From NCBI RefSeq assembly GCF_025772985.1, contig NZ_JAKMTB010000002.1:124001-188000 (forward strand): a DNA stretch of 64,000 nucleotides, read 5' to 3'. The notes beneath the pieces are model-generated. The model was not told the origin of the DNA and searched no databases. It worked only from the letters and a program-made list of their open reading frames with translations. The position numbers and the translations under genes were made by a program. Below are positions 18,783-36,387 of the stretch, in pieces; the first letter of the stretch is position 1, and every line of letters starts with the position of its first letter. This DNA is from Campylobacter sp. CNRCH_2014_0184h. GTDB taxonomy: Bacteria > Campylobacterota > Campylobacteria > Campylobacterales > Campylobacteraceae.

Positions 18783-18801
18783 ACAAAATATTTGTTTAAA
18801 C
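18777..18801. terminator. Bidirectional terminator
   Basis: A perfect 11-bp inverted repeat (GTTTAAACAAA, 3-base loop, TTTGTTTAAAC) between the convergent ACP and DUF2920 genes; it overlaps both gene ends. Confidence 0.75.
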
Positions 18802-20096: not shown

Positions 20097-20819
20097 ATGA
20101 AAAATCTTTGTATTATCCCAGCGCGTGGTGGTTCAAAAAGAATTCCTAGAAAAAATATCATTGATTTTTTAGGAAAACCTTTGATTGCTTATAGCATAGA
20201 AAGTGCTTTAAATTCGGGTATTTTTGATGATGTGATTATCTCAAGCGACGATGATGAGATCATCAAAGTAGCTTTAAAATACGGAGCTAAAGCTCCTTTT
20301 GTGCGTAAAAAAGAATTAAGTGATGATTATGCAAGCTCAACCGCTGTAATCCAAGATGCTATCATTACCCTAGAAATGCAAGATAAAATCTATGAAAATG
20401 TATGTTGTTTATATGCTACTGCACCACTTATAGATGAGTTTATCTTACAAAAAGCTTTTAAGCAATTTATTCAAGATGAGTGCAAATTTTTATTTTCAGC
20501 TTGTGAATTTGAATACCCTATACAAAGAGGTTTTTACCTTAATGAACAAAACAAAGTTTATATGTTTGATGAGTCAAATTATCACAAACGCTCACAAGAT
20601 CTTACTAAAGCTTATCACGATGGTGGTGCATTTTACTTTGGCAAAAAAGAAGCATGGCTAGAAAAAAATTTTATGTTTAAACCTCACTCTAAAGCTTTTT
20701 TACTACCTAGAAATAAAATTTGTGATATTGATACCTTTGAAGACTTAGAATTTGCTAAAATGCTTTATAAATTTCACAATACAAACAAAGCACATCTCAA
20801 AATCTATCATGAAATATAA
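20097..20819 (+). CDS. pseF: PseF, CMP-pseudaminic acid synthetase
   Basis: A 240-residue cytidylyltransferase with the CMP-sugar synthetase signature IIPARGGSKRIPRKN near the N-terminus, then ATAPLI and the metal site CDIDTFEDLE. It joins CMP to pseudaminic acid to give the donor for flagellin glycosylation. It starts the second plus-strand arm of the locus and is divergent from the DUF2920 gene, with a 62-base AT-rich gap for promoters. Counterpart of Cj1311. A legionaminic acid CMP synthetase is the alternative, but neighbouring pseG and pseH favour Pse. Confidence 0.9.
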   Translation: MKNLCIIPARGGSKRIPRKNIIDFLGKPLIAYSIESALNSGIFDDVIISSDDDEIIKVALKYGAKAPFVRKKELSDDYASSTAVIQDAIITLEMQDKIYENVCCLYATAPLIDEFILQKAFKQFIQDECKFLFSACEFEYPIQRGFYLNEQNKVYMFDESNYHKRSQDLTKAYHDGGAFYFGKKEAWLEKNFMFKPHSKAFLLPRNKICDIDTFEDLEFAKMLYKFHNTNKAHLKIYHEI

Positions 20820-20831
20820 GTTATTTTAAAG

Positions 20832-20837
20832 TATAAT
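20832..20837 (+). promoter_or_regulatory. -10 element (TATAAT) before maf
   Basis: TTTTAAAG followed by TATAAT, 28 bases before the maf start, in the 46-base gap after pseF. It could let the maf-to-pseH arm be transcribed apart from pseF. Confidence 0.5.
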
Positions 20838-20865
20838 AATTATTTATGCAATATAAGGAACAAAG

Positions 20866-22767
20866 ATGTTACAAAAAAATATTAAAAGTATAAAAACCAA
20901 ACTAGGGCAAACCTTATCAACAATTAAAAAAAATAAATATCAAGTTATTCAAAGTAATGATAGTTTAGATATTAATTTTTTAAATACTCAAGATAATACC
21001 TTAATTTACAAAAATCCTTTAGATGAATTAAATATTATGTTAAAAAATTACAATGAAAAATATCATTTATATCCTGTATTGTATTTTTTTGGTTTTGGTA
21101 ACGGAATTTTATATAAAGCTCTTTTGCAAAATCCTCACCATAAAGTGATTATAGTTTTTGAAAAAGACTTAGAGATCATCCACACGGCCTTTAGCATAAT
21201 AGATTTTAGCAAAGAATTACAAGAAGCTAGACTAGTAATCGCTGATATCAATTGCCTAAACACGATAGATTATGAACTAATGTGCAGCCAACAACCTATG
21301 CTCAATTTTGCAAGAACTTATTTTTTAGAATTACATTCTGATTACTATGAAAGATATCATGATGACATACTAAAAGTCAACAACAACATGCTAGAATACT
21401 TAAAAAAAGCTGTATTAAAATATGGAAATTTACCACTTGATGCACTTCAAGGTATAGAACAATTTACCTATAATCTTCCTAAAATGTTAACTCATCCAAA
21501 TTATAAAGAACTTTTAAAAAAAAGAAAAAACTTAAGTGATACAGCCATAATTGTCTCTACCGGCCCTAGTCTTTCTAAGCAACTTCCTTTACTAAAGAAA
21601 TATATCAACAAAGCAACAATATTTTGCGCCGATAGCGCTTATCCTATACTAGCCAAACACAACATTAAACCTGATTATGTATTATCACTAGAAAGAATAT
21701 TAGCTACAAGTGAATATTTTAATAATAACTTTGGTGATTTTGATAAGAATATTATTTTTGCCCTAAAATCATACACTCATCCAAAAACAATACAACATCT
21801 AGAAAATAACAACAGAAACTACATGTTAATTTCTCCCACTGATGCTAAATTTATTTATTTTACGCAATTACACACTTATGGTTATCTTGGAACAGGTTGG
21901 AGTGTGGCAAATATGGCCTCAAATCTTGCGTTTGATTTGAGTCATAAAAATATTATTTTAATTGGGCAAGATTTAGCCTATAGCGAAACTGGAGTATCTC
22001 ATTCTAGTGATTATACTTATCTTACAGATAGTTATATAACTAAAAAACCATATAAAAGAGATTTTGGAAAATATGAATGTGAAGCTTATGGAGGGGAAGG
22101 AGTTGTGCAAAGTTCAGCTGCATGGACTTTATTTAGACAAAATTTCGAAAGCGATATTGTTTTTTTTAAACATTTTGGAGTAACCACATATAACTGCACA
22201 GAAGGTGGAGCTAGAATCAAAAATGCTATAGAAAAACCTTTTAAAGAAACATGTGAAGAGCTATTAACGAAAGAACTAGATAAACCTTTTGCGCCTTTAG
22301 AAAAACCAACCTTAAACAAACAAATCGAACTCATGCTTAAAGCATATGTAAAAATAAAAAAAAGTATTTCAAATTGTCATACTTTAAACAATACCATTAA
22401 AGATCATCTGTCTCATTTAAAATGGTCTTATCAAAATACCCACTCCAAAGAAAATATAGAAAATACGTTCAAAAAAATAGATGAAATCAAACTATATATA
22501 GAAGAACTAAAAGATATGAAAGAGTTGCATGAAACTTTAAGCCCATTGCTTGCTCAGTTTGAATTTAACCTGGCTAAAATTTATGTTCTTAATCCTATTA
22601 ACGAAGATGATATACATAATAAATCACTCTTATGGATTAAAGAACATATTGATTGGCTTGAGTTAATTATTGCCCATATCAAAGCTCACGAACAAGCCCT
22701 ACATAGAGGTGTAATTCCTTTACAAGAAGCTATTATAAAAAGAGGATATGGTCATAAAATCAAATGA
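20866..22767 (+). CDS. maf: Motility accessory factor (Maf), flagellin nonulosonic acid transferase
   Basis: A 633-residue member of the DUF115/MAF family. The central domain shows [14 protein letters not shown] (about residue 225) and the following [13 protein letters not shown] and DYVLSLER, typical of Maf flagellin transferases. These proteins attach CMP-pseudaminic or legionaminic acid to serine and threonine of flagellin in the cytoplasm before export. C. jejuni carries several maf genes, some with poly-G tracts; this one has none. Its stop overlaps pseG by 4 bases. Which flagellar sugar it uses cannot be told. Confidence 0.9.
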
Positions 22768-23588
22768 AAGTTCTTTTTAGAAGCGATAGTTCTAGCGCTA
22801 TAGGACACGGACATATCAAAAGAGATCTTTTACTAGCTAAACAATACCAAGATGTATCTTTTGCTTGTTTACCACTAAAAGGCTCTTTAATAGATGAAAT
22901 TCCTTATCCTGTATATGAGCTAACAAGTGCTAGCATATACGAACTCATCAATCTCATCAAAAAGGAAAAATTTGATCTTTTAATCATTGATCATTATGAG
23001 ATCACTGCAGATGATGAAAAACTCATTAAATTAGAAACAGGAATTAAAATTCTTAGCTTTGATGATGAGATAAAAGAACATTTTTGCGACATATTGTTAA
23101 ATGTCAATGCTTATGCTAAAGAAAGTGATTATGAAAATTTAGTGCCAAAGTATTGTGAATTAAGATGTGGTTTTTCCTATGCTCTAATACGCGATGAGTT
23201 TTGTCAAGAAAGCAAGATAAAAAGAGAGAAAATTTATGATTATTTTATCTGTATAGGGGGAAGCGATCCAAAAAATATTTCTTTTGATATAGCAAACAAG
23301 CTTAATAAAAATAAAACTGTCATCATAGCTACCACAAAAGCAAATTCTCATCTAAACTTACTTCAAAAATTAAGCCAAAAAAACCCTAATATACAAATTC
23401 TAATAGACCATCCTAGCCTTGCTAGATTAATGAATGAAAGTAAAAAACTCATCATTAGCGCAAGCTCATTAGTCAATGAAGCTTTGATTTTAAAAGCAAA
23501 TTTTAAAGCCATAGCTTATGCTAAAAATCAAGAAAAAATTGCAACTTGGCTTGCTAAAAAAGGTTATGAAGTGGAGAATTTCACATGA
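22764..23588 (+). CDS. pseG: PseG, UDP-6-deoxy-AltdiNAc hydrolase
   Basis: A 274-residue GT-B fold protein like MurG, with the N-terminal loop containing the catalytic H17 (IGHGHIKRD) and the nucleotide-sugar region IGGSDPKN. PseG removes UDP from the 2,4-diacetamido sugar so that PseI can condense it with PEP. Counterpart of Cj1312. It overlaps the next gene by 4 bases. A second, more distant PseG-like protein lies at 31.8-32.7 kb. Confidence 0.92.
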
Positions 23589-24271
23589 AAATAATTATTG
23601 CTACTCTTAGACAACATAATATCAATAATTTCTACAAAATAAAAGAATTATATAAAACATACACTTTTTATCTCATAACAAAAAAAGATGATCTTACTTT
23701 AGAAAAAATAACAAAAATAAATCCAGATTACATATTCTTCCCGCATTGGTCTTTCTATATACCTCAAGAAATTTACAATAACTATCGATGTATTATTTTC
23801 CACCTTGGAAATTTACCATTTGGAAGAGGAGGCTCACCTTTACAAAATTTAATCATAAGAGGGATATATAAGAGTAAAATTTGCGCTTTAAAAGCTTGCG
23901 ATGTATTGGATGGTGGAGAAATATATTTAAAACATAATATTAGTTTTAAAATTTCAAATGCACAACAAATTTATGAAAAAATTTCAAAAATCATATTCTT
24001 TAAATTGATACCAAAAATTTTACATACAAAAATCAACCCTCACACGCAAAAAGGAAAAGTAGTAGTTTTCAAAAGAAGAACAAAAGAACAAAGTAATATC
24101 AATACACTTGAAAACCCAAATTTGATAAAAATATACGATTTTATACGCATGCTTGATGCTATTGATTATCCAAAAGCTTTTTTGGAATTTGAAAATATAA
24201 AAATGATTTTTCAAAACGCAAAAAAATACAACAATAAAATAAAAGCAGAGGTAATATTTTATGAAAAATAA
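23585..24271 (+). CDS. Formyltransferase-family protein in the pseudaminic acid operon
   Basis: The 228-residue protein has the core of 10-formyl-THF transferases: [19 protein letters not shown] in place of the usual NxHxSLLPxxRGxxP, and a later aspartate in [10 protein letters not shown]. The catalytic His and Asp are present, but the Asn two residues before the His is Ile here, so chemistry may differ. It is not Fmt: no tRNA-binding C-terminal domain, and it lies between pseG and a PIG-L deacetylase. Sugar N-formylation (for example at N7 or N5 of Pse) is the simplest idea. It was not expected from the C. jejuni order. Confidence 0.65.
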
Positions 24272-24929
24272 AAAAATATTAATAATAGCAGCTCATCCAG
24301 ATGATGAGGTTTTAGGATGCTTTGGAACTATAGCAAGATACATTCAAAAAGGATATGAGGCTTATACTTTAATACTTGGAGAAGGCAAGACAAGCAGATC
24401 AACCAATAACAAAAATGAACAAGAAATTTTAGAAGATGAGTTATTGAAAGCAAATAATTTTTTAGGTATCAAAAAAGTTTTTAGAAAGTTTTTTCCTGAT
24501 AATGCTTTTGACAAAATACCATTATTAGAAATAGTCAAAAGTATCGAAGAAATTAAAAATGAAATTAAACCAAATATAATTTTTACACATTATGAAAAAG
24601 ATCTCAATATAGATCATCAAATTACATACAAAGCAACAATCACTGCTACAAGATCTCTACCAGAAGAAAGCGTTAAAGAAATTTATAGTTTTGAAATTTT
24701 ATCTAGCACAGAATGGAACTATCCATTAAGCTTTCAACCCGATGTTTTTTTTGATATCAGCTCATCATTAGACCTAAAACTACAAGCTATGTCTTTTTAC
24801 CAATCAGAACTAAAACAATATCCCCATCCAAGAAGTTTAGAAGGAATAAAAATAAATGCACAATACCAAGGAATGAAAGTTGGACTTCAGTATGCTGAAG
24901 CATTTAAAAGCATCAAGGTAATAAAATGA
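24261..24929 (+). CDS. PIG-L (LmbE) family sugar deacetylase
   Basis: The 222-residue protein has the zinc motif A-H12-P-D-D15-E near the N-terminus (HPDDEVLGCFG) and the distal histidine in NIDHQITYKAT, so the metal site looks complete. PIG-L enzymes remove N-acetyl groups from GlcNAc-type sugars and related compounds. It overlaps the formyltransferase-like gene by 11 bases and the next gene by 4. Together they suggest replacement of an acetyl group on a nonulosonic acid or its precursor by another acyl group. This is inference from order; substrate unknown. Confidence 0.8.
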   Translation: MKNKKILIIAAHPDDEVLGCFGTIARYIQKGYEAYTLILGEGKTSRSTNNKNEQEILEDELLKANNFLGIKKVFRKFFPDNAFDKIPLLEIVKSIEEIKNEIKPNIIFTHYEKDLNIDHQITYKATITATRSLPEESVKEIYSFEILSSTEWNYPLSFQPDVFFDISSSLDLKLQAMSFYQSELKQYPHPRSLEGIKINAQYQGMKVGLQYAEAFKSIKVIK

Positions 24930-26524
24930 TTACTTATAAAAATTTTACAGAGCTTAGCAAAGAAGAAGAAAAAGAAATTTTTCATATAAGAAATTCTTCA
25001 CGTGTTTCTAAATTTATGAAAACACAACATATTAGCCTAGAAGAACATCAGTTATTTTTACAAAAACTCAAAGAAAATAACAAACAACAATATTTTTTAT
25101 TATTAAAAGACGGTATAAAAATAGGAGTAATATATTTTATCAATATAACCAACCATTCATGTGAATTTGGGCTTTATGGTATTCAAAAAGGCGCAGGTGA
25201 ACTTTTAATGCAAGAAGTTAAAAACTATACTTTTAATGTTTTAAAAGTTCAAACCCTAAATGCTTGTGTTTTTAAAGAAAATATAAAAGCTCTAAATTTA
25301 TACCTAAGACATGGATTTAAAATCATCAAAGATAAAGATGGATTTTACTATCTTGATAACGATGCTAAAACCAAAAGACATTTTTTTGTGATAGGTGGTG
25401 GAAGTCTTCAAGCAGATTTTTTATATGAAGTAAAAAAATACTTTATAACACACTTGTTTGATTATGACAAGCAGTGTTTTTTAAAAAAAGAAGCAGATGT
25501 CTTTCACCTTATAAGTATCCACGAAAAAGAAAAAATTTTAAAACTAGCTCGCCAATACAATATCATAGGTATAGGTACAGTAGCAACAGAATTAGGCAAT
25601 ATAACCTCTTGCTATGTGGGCGAGCATTTAAATTTAGGATTAAACTCCTACGAGGTCGCACTCAATACCACCGATAAATCAAGAATGAAAGATATTTTTA
25701 AAAAACATCATATTCCAACCGCAAAATACGAAAAGATATACAGCATTGATGAACTAAAAACCATCAAACTCAAATTTCCCCTAGTTGTAAAACCTAGCGA
25801 TAGAAGTGCTGGCAGAGGAGTAGTAAAAGTACACAATACACAAGAACTTACACAAGCTTACATCAATGCAAAAAAAATTTCTTATAACAAAATAGTCTTA
25901 GTAGAAGAAGTAGTGGAAGGATCACAATATAGTGTAGAAACCATCACCTCTAACGGAAAGCATCAAATTCTAGCTATCACAGAAGAATATCTACGAGATG
26001 ATGAAAACAAAGATGACTTTCTAGAAACCCAACATCTTGTTCCAGCTAGACTTTCCAAAGAAGATGAAAAATTCATCAAAAAAACCATACTAAAAACCTT
26101 AAAAGCTTTTAAAATTGAATATGGAGCATGTCATATAGAGCTAAAACTAAATAATAATAATGTAAAAATAATTGAAATTGCTAGTAGAGCTGGAGGTTGG
26201 AGGAATGTACTAATACAACATTCCATAGGATTAGACTATAACGCTTTAATTTTACAAAGCATTCTCAAACAAAACCTACAGCTTTGCAAAATTAATAAAC
26301 ACTATTATTGCCTAGTAAAAATGATTTTTACCAAACAAGATTTTCAATTTTATCAATTTTTAAAACAAAACAAACCTGATATGATAGTTAAAGACCATGT
26401 ACTAATAGACAATTCAACAGAATTTCAATATTCATCTTCGCTGCTAGACTCTAAAGGTTATTATTACATTAAAATTCCTAAAAATGAAAATCCAGATGAT
26501 TATATCAATGCTTCATTTTTCTAA
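24926..26524 (+). CDS. PseH-like N-acetyltransferase fused to an ATP-grasp ligase
   Basis: The 532-residue protein has two domains. Residues 1-147 are a GNAT domain close to PseH (IGVIYFINIT, SCEFGLY, then KENIKALNLYLRHGF), which acetylates N4 of the PseC product. Residues 152-532 form a full ATP-grasp unit: a Rossmann start FVIGGGSLQADF, the ATP lysine in VVKPSDRSAGRG (K289), EEVVEGSQYSVE, and the Mg site IELKLNNNNVKIIEIASRAGG. ATP-grasp enzymes join a carboxylate to an amine or thiol through an acyl phosphate. C. jejuni PseH is the GNAT alone. The fused ligase may add an amino acid or other acyl group to the same sugar. Confidence 0.85.
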   Translation: MITYKNFTELSKEEEKEIFHIRNSSRVSKFMKTQHISLEEHQLFLQKLKENNKQQYFLLLKDGIKIGVIYFINITNHSCEFGLYGIQKGAGELLMQEVKNYTFNVLKVQTLNACVFKENIKALNLYLRHGFKIIKDKDGFYYLDNDAKTKRHFFVIGGGSLQADFLYEVKKYFITHLFDYDKQCFLKKEADVFHLISIHEKEKILKLARQYNIIGIGTVATELGNITSCYVGEHLNLGLNSYEVALNTTDKSRMKDIFKKHHIPTAKYEKIYSIDELKTIKLKFPLVVKPSDRSAGRGVVKVHNTQELTQAYINAKKISYNKIVLVEEVVEGSQYSVETITSNGKHQILAITEEYLRDDENKDDFLETQHLVPARLSKEDEKFIKKTILKTLKAFKIEYGACHIELKLNNNNVKIIEIASRAGGWRNVLIQHSIGLDYNALILQSILKQNLQLCKINKHYYCLVKMIFTKQDFQFYQFLKQNKPDMIVKDHVLIDNSTEFQYSSSLLDSKGYYYIKIPKNENPDDYINASFF

Positions 26525-26654
26525 AACCACTACATAATCACTATCACAAATGGTATTATTTTCATGATATACTTCTAAGGTGTTTATTTCTATGTTTTTA
26601 AACATAGAAAAAACTCTTTTTACTTCTTCTTCATCAAAAAAATACATATTCATT
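26511..26654. repeat. Duplicated 144-base segment, copy A
   Basis: This segment, the 3' end of the methyltransferase gene at 26513-27178, recurs at 32717-32860 with about 14 differences by eye and no gaps. Copy A is part of the intact gene. Confidence 0.9.
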
Positions 26655-27178
26655 CCATTTTCAGCATAAGCTGAGCGTTTTGGGTTGTTTTCTTGAATAA
26701 TTATACGATATTTATTTTCACTTTTTATTCCGTATTTATATCTATAATCATTTAAATTGCGGGTTAAAATAAAAGCTTTTCCTTCTTTTTTTAAAACCCT
26801 ATAAATTTCTTGAGCTGCTTTTTCTATAATTTGCTGGTCATTATAATATAACACGCCCCAACATAAAATTCCATCAAAGATTTCATTTTCATAAGGAAGT
26901 TTATTCACACTAGCTAGTTCAACTTGAGCCGTTAAACCATAATGATTTAGTAATTTTTTTGTATACGCAACTCCATTGTTTGAATAATCACAACCATATG
27001 TAATATAGTTATTTTCTGCTAAGAATTTTACATGTCTACCTGCACCACAACCAAGATCCAAAATTTTAGAACCTTTTTTAAAATTTTTAAATACGCATTT
27101 TACATACATTTCATGAGGATAGATTGGATGATGCTTACTATCTCCATGAAGTTGCGACCATTTTTCTTGATTATTCAT
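26513..27178 (-). CDS. Class I SAM-dependent methyltransferase
   Basis: The 221-residue protein has SAM motif I DLGCGAGRH at residues 41-49, CDYS after strand 2, and DGILCWGVLYYN at the motif II region, a type 11 fold. It is the last gene of the minus-strand phosphonate arm and overlaps the kinase gene by 8 bases. It could N- or O-methylate a phosphonate or the glycan. Its 3' end overlaps the convergent PseH-ATP-grasp gene by 12 bases. A deletion remnant of a second copy lies at 32719-32859. Confidence 0.82.
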   Translation of the reverse strand: MNNQEKWSQLHGDSKHHPIYPHEMYVKCVFKNFKKGSKILDLGCGAGRHVKFLAENNYITYGCDYSNNGVAYTKKLLNHYGLTAQVELASVNKLPYENEIFDGILCWGVLYYNDQQIIEKAAQEIYRVLKKEGKAFILTRNLNDYRYKYGIKSENKYRIIIQENNPKRSAYAENGMNMYFFDEEEVKRVFSMFKNIEINTLEVYHENNTICDSDYVVVLEK

Positions 27179-27689
27179 TATTTTCCTTTATAGAGAGTTT
27201 GTCAATGATATTTGCTATTGTTTTTACATTGGTTTGGATTTGAAAATTATCTTTTAGCACTATATCGCTAGTTTTTGGAAACTCCAAAGTCTGATCCACA
27301 CCTGCGATATTTGTTATTTTTTGTTTGAAAAAATTTTTACTATCTCTTTGTTTTCTAATATCCAAAGAAACATCAAGAAATATTTCCAAATATCTTGCAA
27401 AATTCTGTCTATTATAATCTCTAATTTCATCAAACATAGATATGGTTGAAAGTATAACAATAAAATTTTGCTTATATAAAATTTGAGACAGTTTGATATA
27501 GTATTTCGCCATTTTTAATCGAGAATTCTTGGTATATTCAAAATTTTCAACACAAGCCCTCAATTCATCTCCATCTAAGACAATCGATTTTTTATGATAT
27601 TCTTTTTGAAGATATTCCTGCAAGGCATAAGCTAATGTAGTTTTTCCACTCCCACTCAATCCTGTAATAAAAACTAAAACTCCTTGCAA
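27171..27689 (-). CDS. APS-kinase-like (CysC family) kinase
   Basis: A 172-residue P-loop kinase with Walker A GLSGSGKTT at residues 10-18 and the APS-kinase substrate loop LDGDELR. The CysC fold phosphorylates a 3'-hydroxyl of a nucleotide. In C. jejuni capsule phosphoramidate synthesis a CysC homologue (Cj1415) phosphorylates cytidine diphosphoramidate. A similar act on a CMP-phosphonate made by the neighbouring cytidylyltransferase-PEP mutase is possible, but sulfate activation cannot be excluded; no sulfate adenylyltransferase gene is in the window. It overlaps the decarboxylase gene by 16 bases. Its last about 20 residues are related to the C-terminus of the aminotransferase at 32.8 kb. 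Confidence 0.8.
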   Translation of the reverse strand: MQGVLVFITGLSGSGKTTLAYALQEYLQKEYHKKSIVLDGDELRACVENFEYTKNSRLKMAKYYIKLSQILYKQNFIVILSTISMFDEIRDYNRQNFARYLEIFLDVSLDIRKQRDSKNFFKQKITNIAGVDQTLEFPKTSDIVLKDNFQIQTNVKTIANIIDKLSIKENNE

Positions 27690-28765
27690 AAATCTTCCTT
27701 TAACCGCAATATATTCTTAGGTCTCCCAAGGTCACTTCTTGTATACTGCTTGACTTTGATCTCTAAAAAAATCAAACCTTTAAGCTCTTTGATTTCTTTA
27801 AGTTTTCTTTTTAGCTGGCTTATATTAGAAATACTAAAGCAATAATCATAACCACATGATTTAGCTAATTTAACAAATGAAGCATTTTTTGCATTTGTAC
27901 TTTGACCACCTACACTATCATGGATTTCATTATTTAAAACTATATGCAAGAAATTTGAACCTTTAAAATTTAATATAGAACCCATATGCATTATAAAAGC
28001 CCCATCACCATCTAAACATACAACTTTTTTTTGGCTATATTTTGATAAAATATAAGCTAAAGAACTAGCATATCCCATAGATCCTACAACTAAAAAATCA
28101 TTATAATGCTTTTGATTTTTTATTTCACGCAACTCATAACACTCTCTTGAAATAAATCCAGTCGTTGCGACTATTTTTGCGTCAGCAAATACATCATGCA
28201 CCAAAGAAATAGCATGCTCTCTAATAATTTTATATGTATTTGTTTTGCGTTTTAAATGATAAGTGCTAAATGTATTTTTCTCGATTAAAAAAGCTATAAT
28301 TTTTGCTTCATTTTTACTTTTTTTTACTGCATTATAAATTTGTTGTTTTGCTATGGCAATATCTTTATCTAAAATATGATTTTCTATTTTACAAGCATCA
28401 AGGATATCCTTAGTTACCTTTCCTTGTTTTGCATGTTGTGGCTCATCATCCTTGCCCCCACGTAAACCAATAAACAGCACCATCGGAATAGCATAAACCT
28501 CAGGATCTGCAAGCGATAAAATCGGATTTATAGCATTTCCCAATCCGGAATTTTGCATATATACACATGCAATTTGTTTTGTTGCTAAATAATACGCACT
28601 AGCAAAGGCTATAGCTTGCCCCTCATTAGACGTGATAAAAAACTGTTCTTTTGGAAGAATTTCTTCCAAAGCGTTATTAATCGGCTTTAAAAGACTATCT
28701 GGAACGCCAGCGAAAAAAGAAAATTGGCTCTTTAGAATATGAGCAAATTCTAAAGAATCAATCAT
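27674..28765 (-). CDS. Phosphonopyruvate decarboxylase
   Basis: A 363-residue ThDP enzyme, the size of phosphonopyruvate decarboxylase (AepY/Ppd). It shows E48 for cofactor activation (SNEGQAIAFA), QNSGLGNAINP, DDEPQHAKQGK, and the ThDP-Mg motif GDGAFIMHMG to NN. It would turn phosphonopyruvate into phosphonoacetaldehyde, which pulls the unfavourable PEP mutase reaction forward. Sulfopyruvate decarboxylase is similar, but the adjacent PEP mutase decides the call. Its ATG overlaps the mutase stop by 4 bases. Confidence 0.9.
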   Translation of the reverse strand: MIDSLEFAHILKSQFSFFAGVPDSLLKPINNALEEILPKEQFFITSNEGQAIAFASAYYLATKQIACVYMQNSGLGNAINPILSLADPEVYAIPMVLFIGLRGGKDDEPQHAKQGKVTKDILDACKIENHILDKDIAIAKQQIYNAVKKSKNEAKIIAFLIEKNTFSTYHLKRKTNTYKIIREHAISLVHDVFADAKIVATTGFISRECYELREIKNQKHYNDFLVVGSMGYASSLAYILSKYSQKKVVCLDGDGAFIMHMGSILNFKGSNFLHIVLNNEIHDSVGGQSTNAKNASFVKLAKSCGYDYCFSISNISQLKRKLKEIKELKGLIFLEIKVKQYTRSDLGRPKNILRLKEDFCKEF

Positions 28766-30069
28766 TGATTTCCTTTTATTAGTTTAATTAAGTCTAATGC
28801 TGAAATATACTGCTCATCAGCCTCCAAACTTCTTCCATTTTGCAATATTGATGTAGCAGTTGCTTTCATGGAAGAATATGCCGATCTTAACAACTGGTTT
28901 GCATACACAACTAAATTTACACCAGCTTTTTCAAGGTCACTCTCACTTAATGAGGGATAATTTGTAGGTACAACCATCAAAGGTTTTTTATCAGTAAATT
29001 GCTTATATTTATCGCAAAACTCTAAAATTTCATGCCCATCTTTTTGTCTAGAATGTATCATAATAGCATCAGCACCAGCCTTGATATATGCACGAGCTCT
29101 AACCAGAGCATCATCCATTCCTTTTTGCAAGATTAAACTTTCTATTCTTGCTATAATCATAAAATCTTTACTTAATTGAGCCTGCTTTCCCTTTTTTATT
29201 TTTAGGCAAAAATTCTCTATTGTATCTTGTGTATGTCTTAAATCAGATTCACATAATGAATTCTGTTTTAATCCAATTTTATCCTCAATAACAACTGCAC
29301 TTACACCAAGTCGCTCTAATCTTTTAACTGTTAACACAAAATGCGGAATTTGCGATCCTGTATCTCCATCGTAAATAATAGGCTTTGTACAAACCTCTAA
29401 TATATCATTAACTGTAGTTATTCTAGAAGTCAAATCAACAAATTCATTATCTGGTTTTCCTTTTGAACTAGAATCTGTTAAAGAGCTTAGCCATAAAAAA
29501 TCAAAAGATTGCTTATTGCCATATTTATCTTTTGCTGTAAGCTCTTCAATAATCATTGCACTCAAACCACTGTGTGCTTCTATACCTTTAATAAGACTCT
29601 TAACTCCTAGTGCCCTTCTTAAAGATCCTAACCTTTCGTGCGGGAGTATACCTGTTTCTTTAATTTGTTTAATCAAAAGACTTGAAGAAATATCTTGCGT
29701 ATATTTAGGTTCTACAACCTTACCACCCCAAGTTTTCATTAATTCAATAGCTCTTTGACGCGAAGAATTTAAAGGACCGCTTCTCCAATCATCTCCATGA
29801 ACAAGAAAATCAGGTCTATATTTTAGTAAATTTATATCATAATCTTTCTGATCTTGCAACACCACCTCATCAACGCCTTTAATTGATTGTAAAATCATTT
29901 TTCGTTGCTCATAACTCATCAAAGGAATTCTTTTGTAACTAGAAATAGCTTTATCAGAAAAAAGCCCGACGATTACATACCCTAATTTAGAAGCCTCTTT
30001 AATGATGTTTAAATGACCTGGGTGTATAATATCAGCAGCCATTGGAACATAAACTATTTTTTTCTTCAA
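28762..30069 (-). CDS. Bifunctional cytidylyltransferase-phosphoenolpyruvate mutase
   Basis: The 435-residue fusion has a nucleotidyltransferase domain (about 1-138) with H16-P-G-H19 and ISSSLLIK in place of the ISTT motif, and a PEP mutase domain (about 155-435). The latter has WLSSLT near 193, DGDTG at 234-238, the diagnostic E262-D-K with N270-S271 (EDKxxxxxNS), and ARIES. PEP mutase makes the C-P bond by turning PEP into phosphonopyruvate. The N-terminal domain most likely activates the finished phosphonate as a CMP ester. It lies 3 bases downstream of the radical SAM gene. This is the key gene of the block. Confidence 0.93.
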   Translation of the reverse strand: MKKKIVYVPMAADIIHPGHLNIIKEASKLGYVIVGLFSDKAISSYKRIPLMSYEQRKMILQSIKGVDEVVLQDQKDYDINLLKYRPDFLVHGDDWRSGPLNSSRQRAIELMKTWGGKVVEPKYTQDISSSLLIKQIKETGILPHERLGSLRRALGVKSLIKGIEAHSGLSAMIIEELTAKDKYGNKQSFDFLWLSSLTDSSSKGKPDNEFVDLTSRITTVNDILEVCTKPIIYDGDTGSQIPHFVLTVKRLERLGVSAVVIEDKIGLKQNSLCESDLRHTQDTIENFCLKIKKGKQAQLSKDFMIIARIESLILQKGMDDALVRARAYIKAGADAIMIHSRQKDGHEILEFCDKYKQFTDKKPLMVVPTNYPSLSESDLEKAGVNLVVYANQLLRSAYSSMKATATSILQNGRSLEADEQYISALDLIKLIKGNQ

Positions 30070-30072
30070 ATT

Positions 30073-31083
30073 TTATCCTTTAAACAAACAAGTGTCACAG
30101 AGTTTTGTTGACTTTAAACAACCATTCTTATGTGCCATTCGAAGCTCATTCATTTTTTCACTATGCCATATTTCATAAATACTATTATTGTTAATATTTC
30201 CAACAGATATATGCTTTGCACGATGACTTGCGCATGGAACTACTAATCCATCTCCATGTATAAATAACGACTCAAAAGGATAAGAGCATTTTTGTTTTCC
30301 AGAAATTGGAGATTCAGAAATAGCCAAACTTCTATCATCATCAAAAGGTGATATTGGGACATAGCGTTGAATTGAAACATAATCTACCTTATCTACCCAA
30401 TAGCGCTTAAAATCCTCCAGCTCATGTTTGTTTATTTCCTGTAATAAAAAACTTACTCTTATAATGGGCAACTTTACATTTAATTTTTCTCTTAAATTTA
30501 TAAAATTTTCTATGTTTTTTATAACATTTTTAAAATTCAAACCAAGTCTTATTTTATTATATGTTTCTTCTGTGTAAGCATCTATACTAAAATTCATTCT
30601 AGTAATATTTGTGTCGAGTAATTTTCTTGACACCTCTTCTGTTAACAAAGAAGCGTTGGTATTAAAATGAATATCAATTATATTTTTTTTACTGCTAACA
30701 TACTGCAATCTTTCGATAATATCAGGATCCAATAAAGGCTCATTTGTTTGGGAAACACCAACAGAAGGACACTGATGTTCATCACATTCATCTACCAATC
30801 TTTTAAATACTTCAAAAGGCAAATACCCTTTATATTTATAATCATTTCTTAAATCTGCATGTCCATGTACACACATAATACACCTAGCATTACATTTAAA
30901 TTGATTTTCGAACCTTACAAATAAAGGGAAATCTTGAAAAATATAATTAGATGCATCATTCCATTTTTTTCTATATTCAGTCCATTTGCTTCCGTATTTT
31001 TCAACAAAAATAGCATCAATATCTTTTTTCGAATTATTAACCACTCTGCCTGCTGAAGTTGATTCTGTTTTTATTTCTGACAT
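30073..31083 (-). CDS. Radical SAM/SPASM domain protein
   Basis: A 336-residue protein with the cluster motif C64-x3-C68-x2-C71 (CNARCIMC) and a C-terminal SPASM-like set of cysteines (QKCSYP, VVPCASH, GCLKSTKLCDTCLF) for an auxiliary iron-sulfur cluster. It overlaps the phosphotransferase gene by 13 bases. Proteins of this type occur in surface-polysaccharide clusters and oxidise, epimerise or rearrange sugars or alcohols. Here it may tailor the phosphonate or its acceptor. No substrate can be named. Confidence 0.85.
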   Translation of the reverse strand: MSEIKTESTSAGRVVNNSKKDIDAIFVEKYGSKWTEYRKKWNDASNYIFQDFPLFVRFENQFKCNARCIMCVHGHADLRNDYKYKGYLPFEVFKRLVDECDEHQCPSVGVSQTNEPLLDPDIIERLQYVSSKKNIIDIHFNTNASLLTEEVSRKLLDTNITRMNFSIDAYTEETYNKIRLGLNFKNVIKNIENFINLREKLNVKLPIIRVSFLLQEINKHELEDFKRYWVDKVDYVSIQRYVPISPFDDDRSLAISESPISGKQKCSYPFESLFIHGDGLVVPCASHRAKHISVGNINNNSIYEIWHSEKMNELRMAHKNGCLKSTKLCDTCLFKG

Positions 31084-31757
31084 TCTATTACCTCTTTTTC
31101 TATTTTTTCATTAATTTTTAGTTCTATTAACCTATAAATCAAATCAAGAACATACAAAAATGCTACAACGCAAAACATCATTTTAATTTTACCAAAAAGC
31201 AAGAAAACACTCACTAAAAAAAGCATCAATGAGCAGTCCATTCCTAAAATAAAATTTCTCTCAAGTAACCACTTTTTGATCCCAAACCTTCGAATTTTTT
31301 TCAATCTCCTTAACCTACTAGAAAAATAAAACATACCAAAAAAATTATGGATATTCATACAACAAAGAACCAAAATTAAAAAAAACAATGAAAAATTCAT
31401 TGAGAAAGTTAAAACGATAAAAATAGCATTAAAAAAAATATTATCATTCAGTCGGTCTAGCCTTGAACCTATATAAGTTCTTTTGTTTGTATACCTTGCA
31501 AGCATACCATCTGTATGGTCAATCAAAGCGTAACATTGTATTAACAGTGCTGCTAATATAAAATTTTGAAAAAATAAACAGTATAAAATAAAGGGAAATA
31601 ACAAAGTATTTAAAAAAGTAATTGCTACAGGATGCACATTCATCTTGGCCAATAAAGGTAAAAATCTGCTTATAACTATTATCCTATATATATACTCTAT
31701 TATATACATACTTTTGCCTTCTAGCCGGTGGTGTTTTTTTATTTTTAATCTATCCAT
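31071..31757 (-). CDS. CDP-alcohol phosphotransferase family membrane protein
   Basis: A 228-residue integral membrane protein with several hydrophobic helices. The complete catalytic motif is at D80-x2-D83-G-x2-A87-R88-x8-G97-x3-D101-x3-D105. Enzymes of this family move a phospho- or phosphono-alcohol from a CDP/CMP donor to a hydroxyl, as in phospholipid and teichoic-acid-like synthesis. With a CMP-phosphonate made next door, it is the obvious transferase to a membrane-linked glycan or lipid. A shorter start at the Met 17 residues in is possible. Confidence 0.88.
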   Translation of the reverse strand: MDRLKIKKHHRLEGKSMYIIEYIYRIIVISRFLPLLAKMNVHPVAITFLNTLLFPFILYCLFFQNFILAALLIQCYALIDHTDGMLARYTNKRTYIGSRLDRLNDNIFFNAIFIVLTFSMNFSLFFLILVLCCMNIHNFFGMFYFSSRLRRLKKIRRFGIKKWLLERNFILGMDCSLMLFLVSVFLLFGKIKMMFCVVAFLYVLDLIYRLIELKINEKIEKEVIECQK

Positions 31758-31768
31758 AATTCTTCAAC

Positions 31769-32722
31769 TTAAAACAATTCGTTTGCTATTGTTTCTAACT
31801 TATTATAATTTTTGTACGTTTTCATTCTTTGTTGCATACTAAGTCTGTTATTATAATTACTATTTTCTAAAAATAAATTGATATCTTTAATACTTTTAGC
31901 GTAATAAAACAACCGCCTATCTCTTCCATACTCAGCAAGCCTTTTTTGATCCTCACTCAAAACCAAACCAATAATTGGAATTTTTAAGAATAAAAACTCA
32001 TATACAGTTTGCCCACATGCGCAAATACCCATATCATTTTTCATCATCAAATCAGACATTACTGGATTTTCAAAAAAAATTAATTTACTATGCTGGATTT
32101 TTAATAATTCAGTTTTATATTTAAATGCTCCGCCCAGAACAACGTTTAAATTAATATTATGTTTTTCTATAAAAGGCAAAATAGAACAAATAATCTCATA
32201 AGTTAGATTTTTATCATCACTTCCACCCAATGTTAATAAAATATTATTTATATTTTTACGAATTTTGATTGGTTTTTTGGTATAAAATTCATCTCGTAAA
32301 AATTTATAATTAAATAAAAATTTTGTTGCAGTATTTACTTTGTAAGCTAGTTCCTTTGCATAGGGATTTGGATTAATTAAAACATCAACATTATAGTATT
32401 TTAATACACACTCATCATCAATGCATATAATTTTTTTAAAATATTTTTTACAATCTTTGAAAAACTCTTCATCAACCATACAATCATCGCACAATAAATA
32501 ATCAGATTTAATAGCAAAAAGATTCTTAGTTCCATCAATTAAAATTAATTTAAACAAAGAATCTTCAATAAGCTTATGACCTGAAATGAAATCATCGTTA
32601 TTTAAGCTAACAAACTGAATATTAAAAGAATTTTGTATCTTTGAAGCCAATAACAAAGTTCTCATCACATGTCCAAGTCCTATTTTAAAACCTCCATTGG
32701 TATATATTAACATTGTCTTCAT
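31769..32722 (-). CDS. Second PseG/SpsG-like GT-B protein
   Basis: The 317-residue protein has the PseG-type N-terminal loop IGLGHVMR with His at 18 and LLTLGGSDDKN in the C-terminal half, so it is a nucleotide-sugar hydrolase or glycosyltransferase of the PseG/MurG group. It is longer than PseG at 22.8 kb and not closely similar. It could release a UDP-sugar in a second nonulosonic or related pathway, or transfer a sugar to the phosphonate acceptor. Its ATG overlaps the stop of a 46-codon methyltransferase remnant. Confidence 0.75.
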   Translation of the reverse strand: MKTMLIYTNGGFKIGLGHVMRTLLLASKIQNSFNIQFVSLNNDDFISGHKLIEDSLFKLILIDGTKNLFAIKSDYLLCDDCMVDEEFFKDCKKYFKKIICIDDECVLKYYNVDVLINPNPYAKELAYKVNTATKFLFNYKFLRDEFYTKKPIKIRKNINNILLTLGGSDDKNLTYEIICSILPFIEKHNINLNVVLGGAFKYKTELLKIQHSKLIFFENPVMSDLMMKNDMGICACGQTVYEFLFLKIPIIGLVLSEDQKRLAEYGRDRRLFYYAKSIKDINLFLENSNYNNRLSMQQRMKTYKNYNKLETIANELF

Positions 32723-32860
32723 TTTTCTAAAACCACTACATAATCACTATCACAAATATTATTATTTTCATGATATATTTCTAGAGTATTTATTTCTATA
32801 CTGCTAAACATAGAAAAAACTCTTTTTGCTTCTTCTTTATCTAAAAAATACATACTCATT
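32717..32860. repeat. Duplicated 144-base segment, copy B
   Basis: Copy of 26511-26654, about 90% identical by eye. It continues to the right for about 60 more bases into sequence related to the 3' end of the kinase gene near 27175-27231, but the methyltransferase body between is missing. Confidence 0.88.
32719..32859 (-). pseudogene. Deletion remnant of a second methyltransferase gene (46 codons, in frame)
   Basis: On the minus strand ATG at 32859 reads M-S-M-Y-F-L-D-K and ends in DYVVVLEK before a TGA at 32719-32721. This equals the last 45 residues of the methyltransferase at 26513-27178 joined to a start codon. In copy A the start region and the internal join site share AATGAATA, which suggests deletion by short-repeat recombination. 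It has an AAGGGAGA ribosome site, so a 46-residue peptide could still be made, but the SAM-binding part is lost. Confidence 0.85.
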
Positions 32861-33907
32861 ATCTCCCTTTGTAGAAAGTTTGTGAATTATTTTTACTATT
32901 GTTTTTATATTGTCTTGAATTTTTTCCATACTAGTTTTTTCATCAAGCCATAAATTTACTATTTGATTTTCCAAAATACTACTATTTTTCAATACCTTTT
33001 TTTTAAAAATTTTATTACATCCTATATACCAAGAACTACAATCAATATTATTTTTTCTTAAATTTACTAATAATTTTTCTCTATTACCCAAAAATCTAAA
33101 GGTATACCTCCATGCAATACTATCATGTGACAATTTTGGATGAATAATTAAATCATGAATCATTTCTTGCTTGTATATTTGCATCTTTTTAATTCTATTT
33201 TTACATATATGCTCTAGTTGATCTAATTTCTTATATAAAACAAAATTATACCGCTCTACTTTATAAAATTTTGTATATTTCAACAATAACTCTTGAAATT
33301 TAGTAAAATAATTATCATTTGACTTGTCTAAGTTATAAAATTCTTTGCGATATTCTTGTATATTATGATCCAAATCTTCAAAAACAGGATTAGCAAGAGT
33401 ATTATTAATGTATCTTAGCTTACTCAGGTCATTCATACTTAATATCCCCCCCCCCATAAAATCATTATCTAAAAATTTTGTATGACCAAAGCTAAATATA
33501 GATAAATCACAAAGTGGGTTAAATTTATATGTTTGAGCACAATCTTCAATAATAAATATATTATGAAATTTGCAAAAGCTAATAATATCATTACTACAAA
33601 TATGTCCATAAACATGAGCTAGTAACAATATATCAAAATTATTAATTTTATAAATTTGTTTTATGCTATTTAAGTCCATTACATAATCATCTAAATTAAT
33701 ATCACAAAACTCATACTCTAATCCTGCCCTAATAGCTGCTATAACTACCTGAGGACATATGATGTTTGGAATCAAAATTTTTGTTCTACCTAATGATTTT
33801 GCATATAAAAAGCTAACATATAACGCACTAGTTCCAGAGTAAGTATACAAACATTCTTTTGCTTTAAATTTACCAACTAACTTGTTTTCTAATTTTTTAA
33901 TCATCAA
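32837..33907 (-). CDS. DegT/DnrJ-type PLP aminotransferase, phase-ON poly-G
   Basis: A 356-residue aminotransferase-fold protein: SGTSALYVS for phosphate binding, E121-D122-C-A-Q for the cofactor ring, and the PLP lysine K144 (FGHTKFLD). A G10 tract encodes M151-G-G-G, and the frame is open, so the gene is ON. It may aminate a sugar or, less typically, phosphonoacetaldehyde, since no other 2-AEP transaminase is seen. Its C-terminus is chimeric: [13 protein letters not shown] resembles the end of the kinase at 27.2 kb and the last residues come from the methyltransferase remnant read in another frame. It overlaps the hisF gene by 4 bases. Confidence 0.8.
33446..33455 (-). repeat. Poly-G10 contingency tract in the aminotransferase gene (ON)
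   Basis: Ten Cs on the plus strand give ATG plus nine Gs in the gene, directly after the PLP-lysine region. Frame is intact at G10. A one-base change would remove the C-terminal 200 residues and could alter expression of the cotranscribed genes downstream. Confidence 0.9.
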
Positions 33908-34641
33908 AAAATCCTCACGGGGATATTATTTTTCAAAAGCTCATTTTTAATATCATTTGGAGTATATTGACTAAAATGAAATATAAAAGCACCTGCTAAT
34001 GCATTTGCACCAAGTTGTATAGCTTTTACCCCATCTTGAGGATTAGAAAGTCCTCCATTGATAATAAGTGGAATTTTTAATTTACCTTTGAAATACTCTA
34101 GTAATTCCCAATCATACCCCAAAGAACTTCCTTCTTTATCAACACTTGTTAAAAGTATCTCCCCTGCTCCGAAATACTCATATTTTAATGCAAGTTCTAA
34201 TGGATCAATATCTAAAATTTCATTATTAAAAACTTTAAATTTATTTTTGTCTTTTTTTACATCAATCGAGCATACTACACAAGAACTTCCAAAAGCATTT
34301 GCTACATTTTTGACAAAACCTGGGTTTTGCAAAGCCATAGAATTAATACTAATTTTATCAGCACCTATATCTAACACTTTTCTAATATCTTCTAAAGTTC
34401 TAATCCCACCTCCAATAGTTAAAGGCATAAAACATTCATTAGCTATATCTTCTAAGCTTTCAAAATCTATAACACCGTTTTTATTAATATCCAAAACTAT
34501 AAGCTCATCAACATTTCTAGCATTATATATCCTAGCTGTGCTTACCACATGTCCTATAGTCCTAAAAGAAGAAAAATTGATACTTTTTACAAGCTGATGA
34601 TCTTTTAATAACACACAAGGTATGATTCTTGTTTTAAGCAT
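33904..34641 (-). CDS. hisF: HisF-like ammonia-channel subunit for PseA
   Basis: A 245-residue TIM barrel of the HisF family. In true HisF the N-terminal segment has a catalytic Asp at position 11; here the segment is [11 protein letters not shown] with Leu11. The second aspartate (CSIDVKK) is kept. That fits a protein recruited with HisH to pass ammonia to an amidotransferase (as in WbpG-HisH2-HisF2) rather than to make histidine. Gene order pseA-hisH-hisF matches C. jejuni Cj1316c-Cj1314c. Confidence 0.85.
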
Positions 34642-34642
34642 G

Positions 34643-35254
34643 CTAGACCTTTAAATTTGCAAAATTTTCCAAAAGTTTCAAACCTACATTTTGGCTTTTT
34701 TCAGGGTGAAATTGCACAGCAAAAATATTATCTTTTTCAAAACTTACACAAAAAGGTTTTTCATACTCACAAAAAGAAGTCTCCACTCTCTCTAAACACT
34801 CTACATAATAAGAATGCACAAAATAAAAATCACTTTTTTCTAAAATTCCATCAAAAAGCTTGCTTTTTTTATCACTAAACTGTAAATCATCCCAACCACT
34901 GTGCAATAATTTTTCTTTACTTAAATCAAATTTCAAAACCTTTGCTTTTATAAAATCAAGCCCTTCACACTCTCCGCCCTCATATCCCTTACTAGCAAAA
35001 AGTTGCATACCAAGGCAAATCCCCAAAATAGGCTTTTTATCTTTTAAAACACATTCTTTTAAAAGCTCATCTAGTGCAAGTTTTTTTAAATTTTCCATAC
35101 CTTGTTTAAAAGATCCAACGCCTGGCAAAACTAATTTAGAAGCATTTTTTATATCTTCTTTTTTAGAACTTATAATCACTTCTTGATTAAGTTTTTCAAA
35201 AGCTTTTAAAACAGATTTAAAATTTCCAAGATGATAATCAACAATACAAATCAT
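34643..35254 (-). CDS. hisH: HisH-like glutamine amidotransferase for PseA
   Basis: A 203-residue class I glutaminase with the nucleophile C80 in GICLGMQLF and the FHPEKS His-Glu pair near the end. It releases ammonia from glutamine and, with the HisF-like partner, feeds PseA. It overlaps pseA by 4 bases and ends 1 base from hisF. The context and the altered HisF argue against a role in histidine synthesis. Confidence 0.88.
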
Positions 35255-36387
35255 TTCAAAATAAACTCATCTTTTTTTATCAACGACCCATCACTATCTC
35301 TTAAGAATTTACCATTTTCATCGCGTTTAAATATCTTTTTATTAGTAAAAGAATCTACAATTTTTTCAAATTCTTTTTCACTAAAACCACTAAATTCCAA
35401 ATACTTCTTAATAGCCTTTTTAGGTGGCTTTCCATCATATTTATTTACAAGTCTCACACCCTCTTCACGGCTAATATAGCCAAGTCTTATATCCAAACAC
35501 GCATTATCTGTAGCTCTTCCAAAACCATATTTGCAGTATTTTAAATAATCATGCACATGATTTGAATAACAATCTAAATTTTCAAAATTCTCATAAGTAG
35601 TTTCAACTGGTTTTGTACTAGTTTTAAAACCATTTTCTTGGGCTAATTTTAAATTATACTTATAATCCCATTTAAAATAATATCCCAAAAATAACCCTGT
35701 AACTCCTACTCTTTGAAGCTCTTCATCACTTGGATAAGTATAAAAATATAAATCCTTTTCTCTAATACCATCAACACCAATCATATCAGAAATTCTATTA
35801 CCCAAAAGTCCGCCAAATTCTTCAAGCCACTCTCTACCTAAAGTATTTTTTTCTTTAGAACTAGCTGGCCCACCATATTCAATCTGCGGACTTTCCCCCC
35901 AAATAATCAAAGGAATGTCAAAAGCAACAGCTACTTTTGGAACACATGTAAAAATCCCCAAATGGTTTTGCCATTCATTATCACCCGTTCTTATAAAAGC
36001 TTCGCGGGCTAATTTTTTATACACCAAAGGATTTCTTTTGATATGGATTAAATCAACACCAAGATTATTTAAATTTTTTAAATTCTTTTTACCTATTTTA
36101 GTAGGAATACTTGGTTCAAAACAAACACACAAAGGATTGAGTCCAAGTTCAAGACATTTTAAAACTTGAAAGGTAGAATCCTTACCACCACTTACTCCTA
36201 TCACACAATCATACACAGGATGTTTTTTATATTTTTTAACGAGTTCTAGAAATTCTTTTTCACGCTCTTGCCAATTTATCTCATGATTTTTAGCTTCTTG
36301 CGAGCAACACGCATCACAAATTCCCTCATCATTAAAATGCAAATCAGGCTTAGTATCTGGCATAACGCATTTTTTACAAAATTTCAT
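35251..36387 (-). CDS. pseA: PseA, amidotransferase for acetamidino-pseudaminic acid
   Basis: A 378-residue N-type PP-loop enzyme with an N-terminal cysteine cluster (FCKKCVMPDT, CDACC) and the PP-loop SGGKDST near residue 68. It converts the acetamido group of pseudaminic acid to acetamidino (PseAm), using ammonia from HisH/HisF. It is the first gene of the long minus-strand unit that runs through the phosphonate block to 26513. Counterpart of Cj1316c. In C. jejuni pseI follows next to it; here the next gene is a permease. Confidence 0.93.
   Translation of the reverse strand: MKFCKKCVMPDTKPDLHFNDEGICDACCSQEAKNHEINWQEREKEFLELVKKYKKHPVYDCVIGVSGGKDSTFQVLKCLELGLNPLCVCFEPSIPTKIGKKNLKNLNNLGVDLIHIKRNPLVYKKLAREAFIRTGDNEWQNHLGIFTCVPKVAVAFDIPLIIWGESPQIEYGGPASSKEKNTLGREWLEEFGGLLGNRISDMIGVDGIREKDLYFYTYPSDEELQRVGVTGLFLGYYFKWDYKYNLKLAQENGFKTSTKPVETTYENFENLDCYSNHVHDYLKYCKYGFGRATDNACLDIRLGYISREEGVRLVNKYDGKPPKKAIKKYLEFSGFSEKEFEKIVDSFTNKKIFKRDENGKFLRDSDGSLIKKDEFILK

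Follow-up and report, generated by a model that had tools for sequence, protein, structure and literature searches.

A predicted phosphonate cassette joined to a flagellar nonulosonate-glycan operon in Campylobacter

Why should a locus devoted to flagellar glycans carry genes for making a carbon–phosphorus (C–P) bond, and which phosphonate would such genes produce? The question is raised by an eight-gene block (26513-33907, minus strand) in a 64-kb stretch of the genome of Campylobacter sp. CNRCH_2014_0184h (contig NZ_JAKMTB010000002.1, positions 124,001 to 188,000), hereafter called the window, within which all coordinates are given. An earlier note on this DNA had described a single phosphonate block downstream of pseA-hisH-hisF. 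Our ORF check of the window recovered all eight ORFs on that strand, with the gene families named in the note, but the block is actually composed of two modules, one a phosphonate cassette and the other a flagellar-glycan module found as well in genomes without any phosphoenolpyruvate (PEP) mutase (PepM). We propose, with a probability of about one in two, that the cassette has been inserted into an operon for a flagellar nonulosonate glycan via a dedicated CDP-alcohol phosphotransferase (CDPOH), and that it feeds a six-step pathway set out below.

The entry into phosphonate chemistry is encoded by two adjacent genes. The Fom1-like bifunctional protein CyT::PepM (28762-30069, minus strand) joins a cytidylyltransferase domain (CyT; PF01467, amino acids 13-134) to a mutase domain that scores 369.2 bits against TIGR02320, above the curated equivalog cut-off of 319.55. 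The PepM motif EDKxxxxxNS is present as EDKIGLKQNS, and in an alignment with 5unc the catalytic and Mg residues are intact (DGDTG, ARIES and the catalytic Asp in SSKGKPD). Phosphonopyruvate decarboxylase (Ppd; 27674-28765, minus strand), a thiamine pyrophosphate enzyme, likewise exceeds its curated equivalog cut-off (TIGR03297, 382.5 bits for 312.5); type-specific residues were looked for in this protein and none was found. Strong homology thus predicts that PepM would convert PEP to phosphonopyruvate and Ppd would convert the latter to phosphonoacetaldehyde, as the earlier note had held in assigning the committed steps towards a C–P compound to this block. Among solved structures, the CyT domain of Fom1 comes closest to the N-terminal domain (5x3d, E 1e-43). 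As this cytidylyltransferase is fused to the mutase, CMP-activation is therefore encoded by the same protein; the CMP-activated phosphonate postulated earlier is supported by this fusion, which had been missed. Nucleotidyl activation is known in surface-phosphonate pathways, and fusions of PepM to a nucleotidyltransferase are common (about 60%; Rice et al. 2019, PMC6697681).

The same genes travel together in other genomes (G numbers denote compared genomes and L numbers compared loci, G000 being the window's genome). A PEP mutase above the cut-off is found in 6 of the 49 genomes of the genus, and a CyT::PepM homologue in 44 of 397 across the phylum. The cassette, made up of genes for a radical S-adenosylmethionine (SAM) protein (rSAM), CyT::PepM, Ppd and an adenosine 5'-phosphosulfate (APS)-kinase-like protein (APSK), occurs in 10 genomes from three genera. 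Within the genus, rSAM lies beside CyT::PepM in four of the six PepM genomes (G000, G002, G011 and G044; rSAM 78-83% identical). The order rSAM - CyT::PepM - Ppd - APSK, on one strand, is also seen in G367, from another genus, and in G169, G157, G093, G078 and G340, from another family, with 77-79% identity to the window for rSAM and 73-76% for CyT::PepM; over all cassette genomes CyT::PepM is 72-77% identical to the window protein. With scores above curated cut-offs, intact catalytic motifs and a gene order kept across genera, the gene set is not a chance assembly.

What sets the cassette apart is the lack of the enzymes that normally process its aldehyde. Phosphonoacetaldehyde is usually either reduced to 2-hydroxyethylphosphonate (HEP) by a group III iron-containing alcohol dehydrogenase (Fe-ADH) or transaminated to 2-aminoethylphosphonate (AEP). 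Among 80 loci of other bacteria, the Fe-ADH family is present in 34 and the transaminase family in 28, and both sets include Campylobacter capsule loci or their relatives. An Fe-ADH or AEP transaminase lies near 38 of the 43 non-cassette Campylobacterota PepM loci, of which one genome is counted twice (L194 = L022), with 28 Fe-ADH, 9 transaminases and one locus with both, versus none of the 10 cassette loci (Fisher p = 1.5e-7, a value that overstates the case because few lineages are involved). Genome-wide, no Fe-ADH (PF00465) above the cut-off was found in nine of the ten cassette genomes, G367 being the exception; the best score in the window's genome is 22 bits for a cut-off of 31.3. No AEP transaminase (TIGR03301, cut-off 360.8) reaches the cut-off anywhere in the ten genomes, the maxima being 37 bits in the window's genome and 134 bits over the cassette genomes, whereas two AEP-type control genomes exceed 400 bits. 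The earlier suggestion of AEP as the product therefore finds no backing here. Because both aldehyde enzymes are missing and rSAM is always present instead, the decoration is probably neither AEP nor HEP.

The CyT domain points in the same direction. Its HxGH (HPGH/HTGH) and SYK catalytic motifs are kept in all cassette sequences, and residues 9/11/75/100 of the window CyT::PepM protein, whose numbering is used throughout, are P/A/K/L. Positions 75/100 are K/L in 10/10 cassette genomes, which thus lack the L75/Q100 signature of Fom1-type HEP enzymes, whereas they are L/Q in 46/47 Fe-ADH-linked (HEP-type) homologues from many phyla, in 7/7 added Campylobacterota HEP-type homologues and in Fom1 itself; position 11 is S (or A) in the HEP type and A in the cassette. 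These residues suggest that CyT is an active cytidylyltransferase whose phosphonate substrate is not HEP. The corresponding residues of AEP-linked CyT homologues are variable; a reading of them as AEP-binding was dropped because many of those domains are degenerate (HPGL in 12/30; SYK lost). In AEP-type loci such as L240, L241, L248, L250 and L251, the fused CyT often has HPGL, and several of these loci carry a separate LicC-type nucleotidyltransferase.

The twitch-type radical SAM/SPASM protein (30073-31083, minus strand; PF04055, PF13186) is the best conserved protein of the cassette, 77-83% identical in the other nine genomes. It has a CX3CX2C motif together with auxiliary cysteines C266/C284/C329/C332, a BtrN/twitch-like set, and passes the cut-off of none of the curated radical-SAM subfamily models. 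Two assignments, as a tungsten-cofactor maturase or as a viperin-like protein, were set aside, the similarity being below cut-off or at the level of the fold. Since rSAM is invariant in the cassette and the usual branch enzyme is missing, gene content makes it a candidate for the branch step.

The fourth cassette protein, APSK (27171-27689, minus strand; PF01583), has an APS-kinase fold and scores above the PRK05541 subfamily cut-off and below that of the ApsK equivalog (TIGR00455, 101.7 bits for 138.7). It keeps the P-loop and the DGD motif and has TISMF where CysC has ISPF. Cassette APSKs form their own clade beside a Cj1415-like clade of kinases that adjoin Cj1416-like genes for the O-methyl phosphoramidate (MeOPN) capsule group, TISMF being common to both. 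APSK is thus a member of a separate neighbouring clade and no orthologue of Cj1415, which we take to be the cytidine diphosphoramidate kinase, but may still function like it. By analogy, it would phosphorylate the 3' position of a CMP-phosphonate. In Campylobacter jejuni the P–N capsule group is made via a cytidine diphosphoramidate kinase, according to Taylor and Raushel (2018), as cited in PMC6429109. No Cj1416-like gene was found in the window's genome, so APSK is not a leftover of MeOPN synthesis there. The capsule locus of G013 combines a HEP-type cluster and an APSK in place of Cj1416-1418 with retained Cj1419/1420-type methyltransferases. Several loci carry related arrangements. HEP-type Fe-ADH, Ppd and CyT::PepM genes occupy the Cj1415 position of a Campylobacter capsule locus in L101 (7071-12785; G013) and L102 (G036), and in L200, L246, L247 and L249, from other Campylobacterota, MeOPN-type (P–N) genes adjoin HEP-type PepM (P–C) genes. 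APS-kinase-like domains carrying a fused methyltransferase or GNAT acetyltransferase adjoin the cassette in L146 (8544-9722, 13784-14773) and L149 (5898-6872), followed by a LicC-like::aminotransferase fusion. In L216 (550-3090; G046), genes for APS-kinase-like, ATP-sulfurylase-like and pyruvate-kinase-like proteins stand in a row beside a pse locus.

How is the cassette tied to the flagellum? On the minus strand the gene order is DegT - PseG-like - CDPOH - rSAM - CyT::PepM - Ppd - APSK - MTase_A. From CDPOH onward the genes overlap (CDPOH/rSAM by 13 nt, CyT::PepM/Ppd by 4 nt, Ppd/APSK by 16 nt and APSK/MTase by 8 nt) or are spaced by 3 nt, and therefore form one operon. CDPOH (31071-31757, minus strand; PF01066, 2.4e-14) carries the class I motif DxxDGxxARx8Gx3Dx3D as DHTDGMLARYTNKRTYIGSRLDRLND. 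The CDPOH proteins of G000, G002, G011 and G367 form a clade (99/98 support) apart from homologues in PepM-less genomes, which fits a dedicated phosphonate transferase, and CDPOH may use the CMP-phosphonate as donor. The other members of the glycan module are the SAM-dependent methyltransferase MTase_A (26513-27178, minus strand; PF13649, 9e-19), a PLP aminotransferase of the DegT/DnrJ/EryC1 type (DegT; 32837-33907, minus strand; PF01041, 1.1e-20; 50% identical orthologue in G367) and a PseG-like protein of GT-B fold (31769-32722, minus strand), a nucleotide-sugar hydrolase or glycosyltransferase that falls just below the TIGR03590 cut-off (152.7 bits for 153.55). CDPOH with MTase_A, DegT or PseG-like, in varied combinations, is found beside pse, neuB, Maf and flaA in the PepM-less genomes G034, G043, G022 and G046, and on a flagellar contig of G036, whose HEP-type PepM sits in a capsule locus. 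The PseG-like orthologue of PepM-less G022 is 72% identical; about 200 extra amino acids on the CDPOH of that genome, taken at one point for a cytidylyltransferase, are a C-terminal methyltransferase domain. In G046, HisF/HisH/PseA-like genes occupy the equivalent position with no cassette, and G367 repeats the whole window architecture, beside neuB, pseF and pseH-like genes. The link to flagellar and nonulosonate glycan genes drawn in the earlier note is thus upheld by the same context in G367 and G044 and by related CDPOH modules beside Maf, neuB and flaA elsewhere. Other Campylobacterota likewise have HEP-type PepM loci with flagellin, Maf or neuB as neighbours, L192 and L197 lying directly beside flagellin or Maf genes.

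The proposed pathway would run as follows. After the two steps leading to phosphonoacetaldehyde, predicted from strong homology and, for PepM, from intact catalytic residues, the aldehyde would skip both the AEP branch and the usual Fe-ADH route to HEP, and rSAM would act on an aldehyde-derived or CMP-bound phosphonate, as gene content suggests. CyT would load the phosphonate onto CMP in a pocket that, judging by its residues, probably differs from that of HEP enzymes. APSK would then phosphorylate the 3'-OH of the CMP-phosphonate, by analogy with the kinase of the MeOPN capsule pathway, and CDPOH, judging by its context, would move the phosphonate to a hydroxyl of a pseudaminic-type flagellar sugar, which Maf would attach to flagellin. 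DegT, the PseG-like protein and the methyltransferase would shape the sugar part. The identity of the product, the role of rSAM and the acceptor are all inferred. More tentatively, the cassette might define a third PepM branch, in which a SPASM-type rSAM converts phosphonoacetaldehyde or its CMP conjugate to a non-AEP, non-HEP phosphonate, which a Fom1-type domain of altered specificity would activate with CMP before its 3'-phosphorylation and transfer to a flagellar nonulosonate glycan.

Several observations weigh against this proposal. The ten cassette genomes represent only about three lineages, so that their counts are not independent, and the cassette of G044 is partial, its Ppd aligning only in part and no APSK being seen. 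In the second family, all five cassettes are without CDPOH and lie outside a pse locus, in another glycan locus; the flagellar link consequently holds good for Campylobacteraceae and is no property of the cassette itself. The CDPOH family is not specific to phosphonates, as homologues occur in PepM-less genomes. The kinase assignment is weakened by a G046 kinase that adjoins an ATP-sulfurylase-like gene and falls in the Cj1415-like group. The structural model of rSAM (pLDDT 78) matches MoaA, BtrN, BlsE, DesII and viperin about equally, and because these fold matches are generic the reaction cannot be named from structure. Positions 11/75/100 of CyT are likely to stand on loops around the active site, a placement judged from the GCT/Fom1 fold. 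Finally, an unrelated housekeeping reductase could make HEP.

This last point leads to the alternative that survives best, an ordinary HEP branch, which we consider possible though less probable than our proposal. An unlinked cellular aldehyde reductase would supply HEP, CyT would form CMP-HEP as Fom1 does, and rSAM would modify CMP-HEP or the sugar. The kinship of CyT with Fom1 and the HxGH and SYK motifs shared with HEP-type loci agree with it, HEP-type clusters are numerous in the phylum, and Fom1 with Fom3 shows that a radical-SAM enzyme can act on CMP-HEP. However, all ten cassette genomes have lost the L75/Q100 pair that is near-invariant in HEP-type enzymes, nine of them have no Fe-ADH, and other Campylobacterota HEP-type loci keep the reductase in the cluster.

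Somewhat more doubtful is a different acceptor: a phosphonate would be made, but CDPOH would form a phosphonolipid or decorate lipooligosaccharide (LOS), capsule or another surface glycan, the flagellar locus being only an address. CDP-alcohol phosphotransferases are in general membrane proteins often acting on lipids, the best curated matches of the window CDPOH are lipid synthases, far below cut-off, the cassette of the second family belongs to a different glycan locus, and the HEP-type PepM genes of G013 and G036 lie in a capsule locus. Against this, the closest architectures (G000, G367 and G044) stand beside pse/neuB genes, and related CDPOH genes have Maf and flaA as neighbours in G036, and Maf/pse in G043, G022 and G046.

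That AEP is made by an aminotransferase, either DegT or an unlinked enzyme, and is then CMP-activated and attached appears improbable. AEP is the commonest surface phosphonate (PMC6697681), it has been described on flagellin in Clostridioides difficile (PMC8861647), and a PLP-dependent DegT is present in the operon. Apart from the missing AEP transaminase, however, DegT is a poor substitute: as a member of the glycan module it is found, like MTase_A, in genomes lacking PepM, it has sugar aminotransferases among its matches, and it is absent from the second family's cassette. DegT was accordingly rejected as the transaminase for the aldehyde. AEP-type loci, moreover, often have the degenerate PepM-fused CyT mentioned above, unlike the window. 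It is hardly credible that no C–P compound is formed, with the mutase-like domain acting as a hydrolase or lyase in a decayed or repurposed gene set, for although methylisocitrate lyase and phosphonopyruvate hydrolase share the PepM fold, the protein scores 141 bits with the hydrolase model and 87 with the lyase model versus 369 for PepM, EDKxxxxxNS is kept in all, a Ppd equivalog adjoins and 72-77% identity is maintained across genera.

The surroundings of the block bear on its expression and history. It is flanked on one side by hisF-, hisH- and pseA-like genes for acetamidino-nonulosonate synthesis (33904-36387, minus strand), upstream on the same strand, and on the other by converging plus-strand genes (20097-26524) for pseF, Maf, pseG, a formyltransferase, a PIG-L-type deacetylase and a PseH::ATP-grasp protein. 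In the latter (24926-26524), PseH acetyltransferase is fused to an ATP-grasp ligase, the two being separate genes in G367. The wider gene order (dcd-pseB, flhB, ahpC, fdxA) agrees with that generally known for Campylobacter. DegT holds a G10 tract on its coding strand (C10 at 33446-33455) and, at the equivalent position, is broken into two ORFs in G036 and G034 (loci L190 and L213); it is probably phase-variable, and the tract would switch it. G9 and C9 tracts (12532-12540, 19466-19474) are also seen, the former at a Cj1295-like gene with a listed ORF beginning no earlier than 12718, the latter within an alpha/beta-hydrolase gene (18796-20034); both are probable further phase-variable flagellar glycan genes. 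A blastn self-comparison revealed a scar between DegT and the PseG-like gene (32717-32922, minus strand): within it, 32717-32860 repeats the 3' end of the methyltransferase gene (26511-26654) with 90% identity, and 32853-32922 repeats the APSK/MTase junction (27172-27241) with 81% identity. These direct repeats flank the inner block, from PseG-like to MTase, and suggest its gain or rearrangement by recombination.

The system resembles several known ones without coinciding with any of them. Fom1 of the fosfomycin pathway, which makes CMP-HEP, has the same CyT-PepM domain order and the HxGH and PepM motifs, and a radical-SAM enzyme acts later in that pathway; it differs by its HEP-type S11/L75/Q100 (A/K/L in the window, which has no Fe-ADH), by a cobalamin-type Fom3 where the window has a SPASM/twitch-type rSAM, and by its antibiotic cluster instead of a glycan context. 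The Pnt pathways (Rice et al. 2019, PMC6697681), which lead to AEP via PntC, similarly bring together PepM, Ppd, nucleotidyl activation and a transferase within a locus for surface glycans, whereas the window block has no AEP transaminase or LicC-type PntC, and rSAM and APSK fall outside the described Pnt logic. With the MeOPN system of C. jejuni (Cj1415-Cj1420; CDP-amidate, 3'-kinase Cj1415) the block has in common a related kinase clade and, as a proposed common logic, an APS-kinase fold beside a CMP-activated phosphorus group; MeOPN-type (Cj1419/1420-type) methyltransferases also adjoin the cassette in G078 and G340. The bond is P–N there and P–C here, the locus is capsular there and flagellar here, and the window's genome has no Cj1416-Cj1418 homologues. 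The type A flagellin glycan of C. difficile is a published precedent for a phosphonate on flagellin (PMC8861647), in an organism without PepM and with GlcNAc carrying phospho-N-methylthreonine. We found no phosphonate described on Campylobacter flagella or glycans in the open-access literature, in line with what the earlier note had stated for flagella. We class the system among PepM-dependent surface phosphonate pathways, as neither an AEP nor a HEP pathway. Nucleotidyl activation, PepM fusions and AEP on C. difficile flagellin were already known; the rSAM cassette without Fe-ADH or transaminase, the altered CyT residues, the dedicated CDPOH clade and the placement in a flagellar glycan locus are new.

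If our proposal is correct, Campylobacteraceae relatives of pathogens would place a phosphatase-resistant C–P group on their flagella (or on another surface glycan) by way of a branch that lacks the known enzymes for processing the aldehyde. The cassette would then be a genetically tractable system in which a radical-SAM reaction and a phosphonate, both new, could be identified, and it would widen activation via 3'-phospho-CMP, as in the MeOPN pathway, from P–N to P–C groups. It would also account for a possible source, or site of display, of phosphonates in gut bacteria. Because part of the operon looks phase-variable, such a decoration would be relevant to flagellin recognition, phage binding and antigenic variation.

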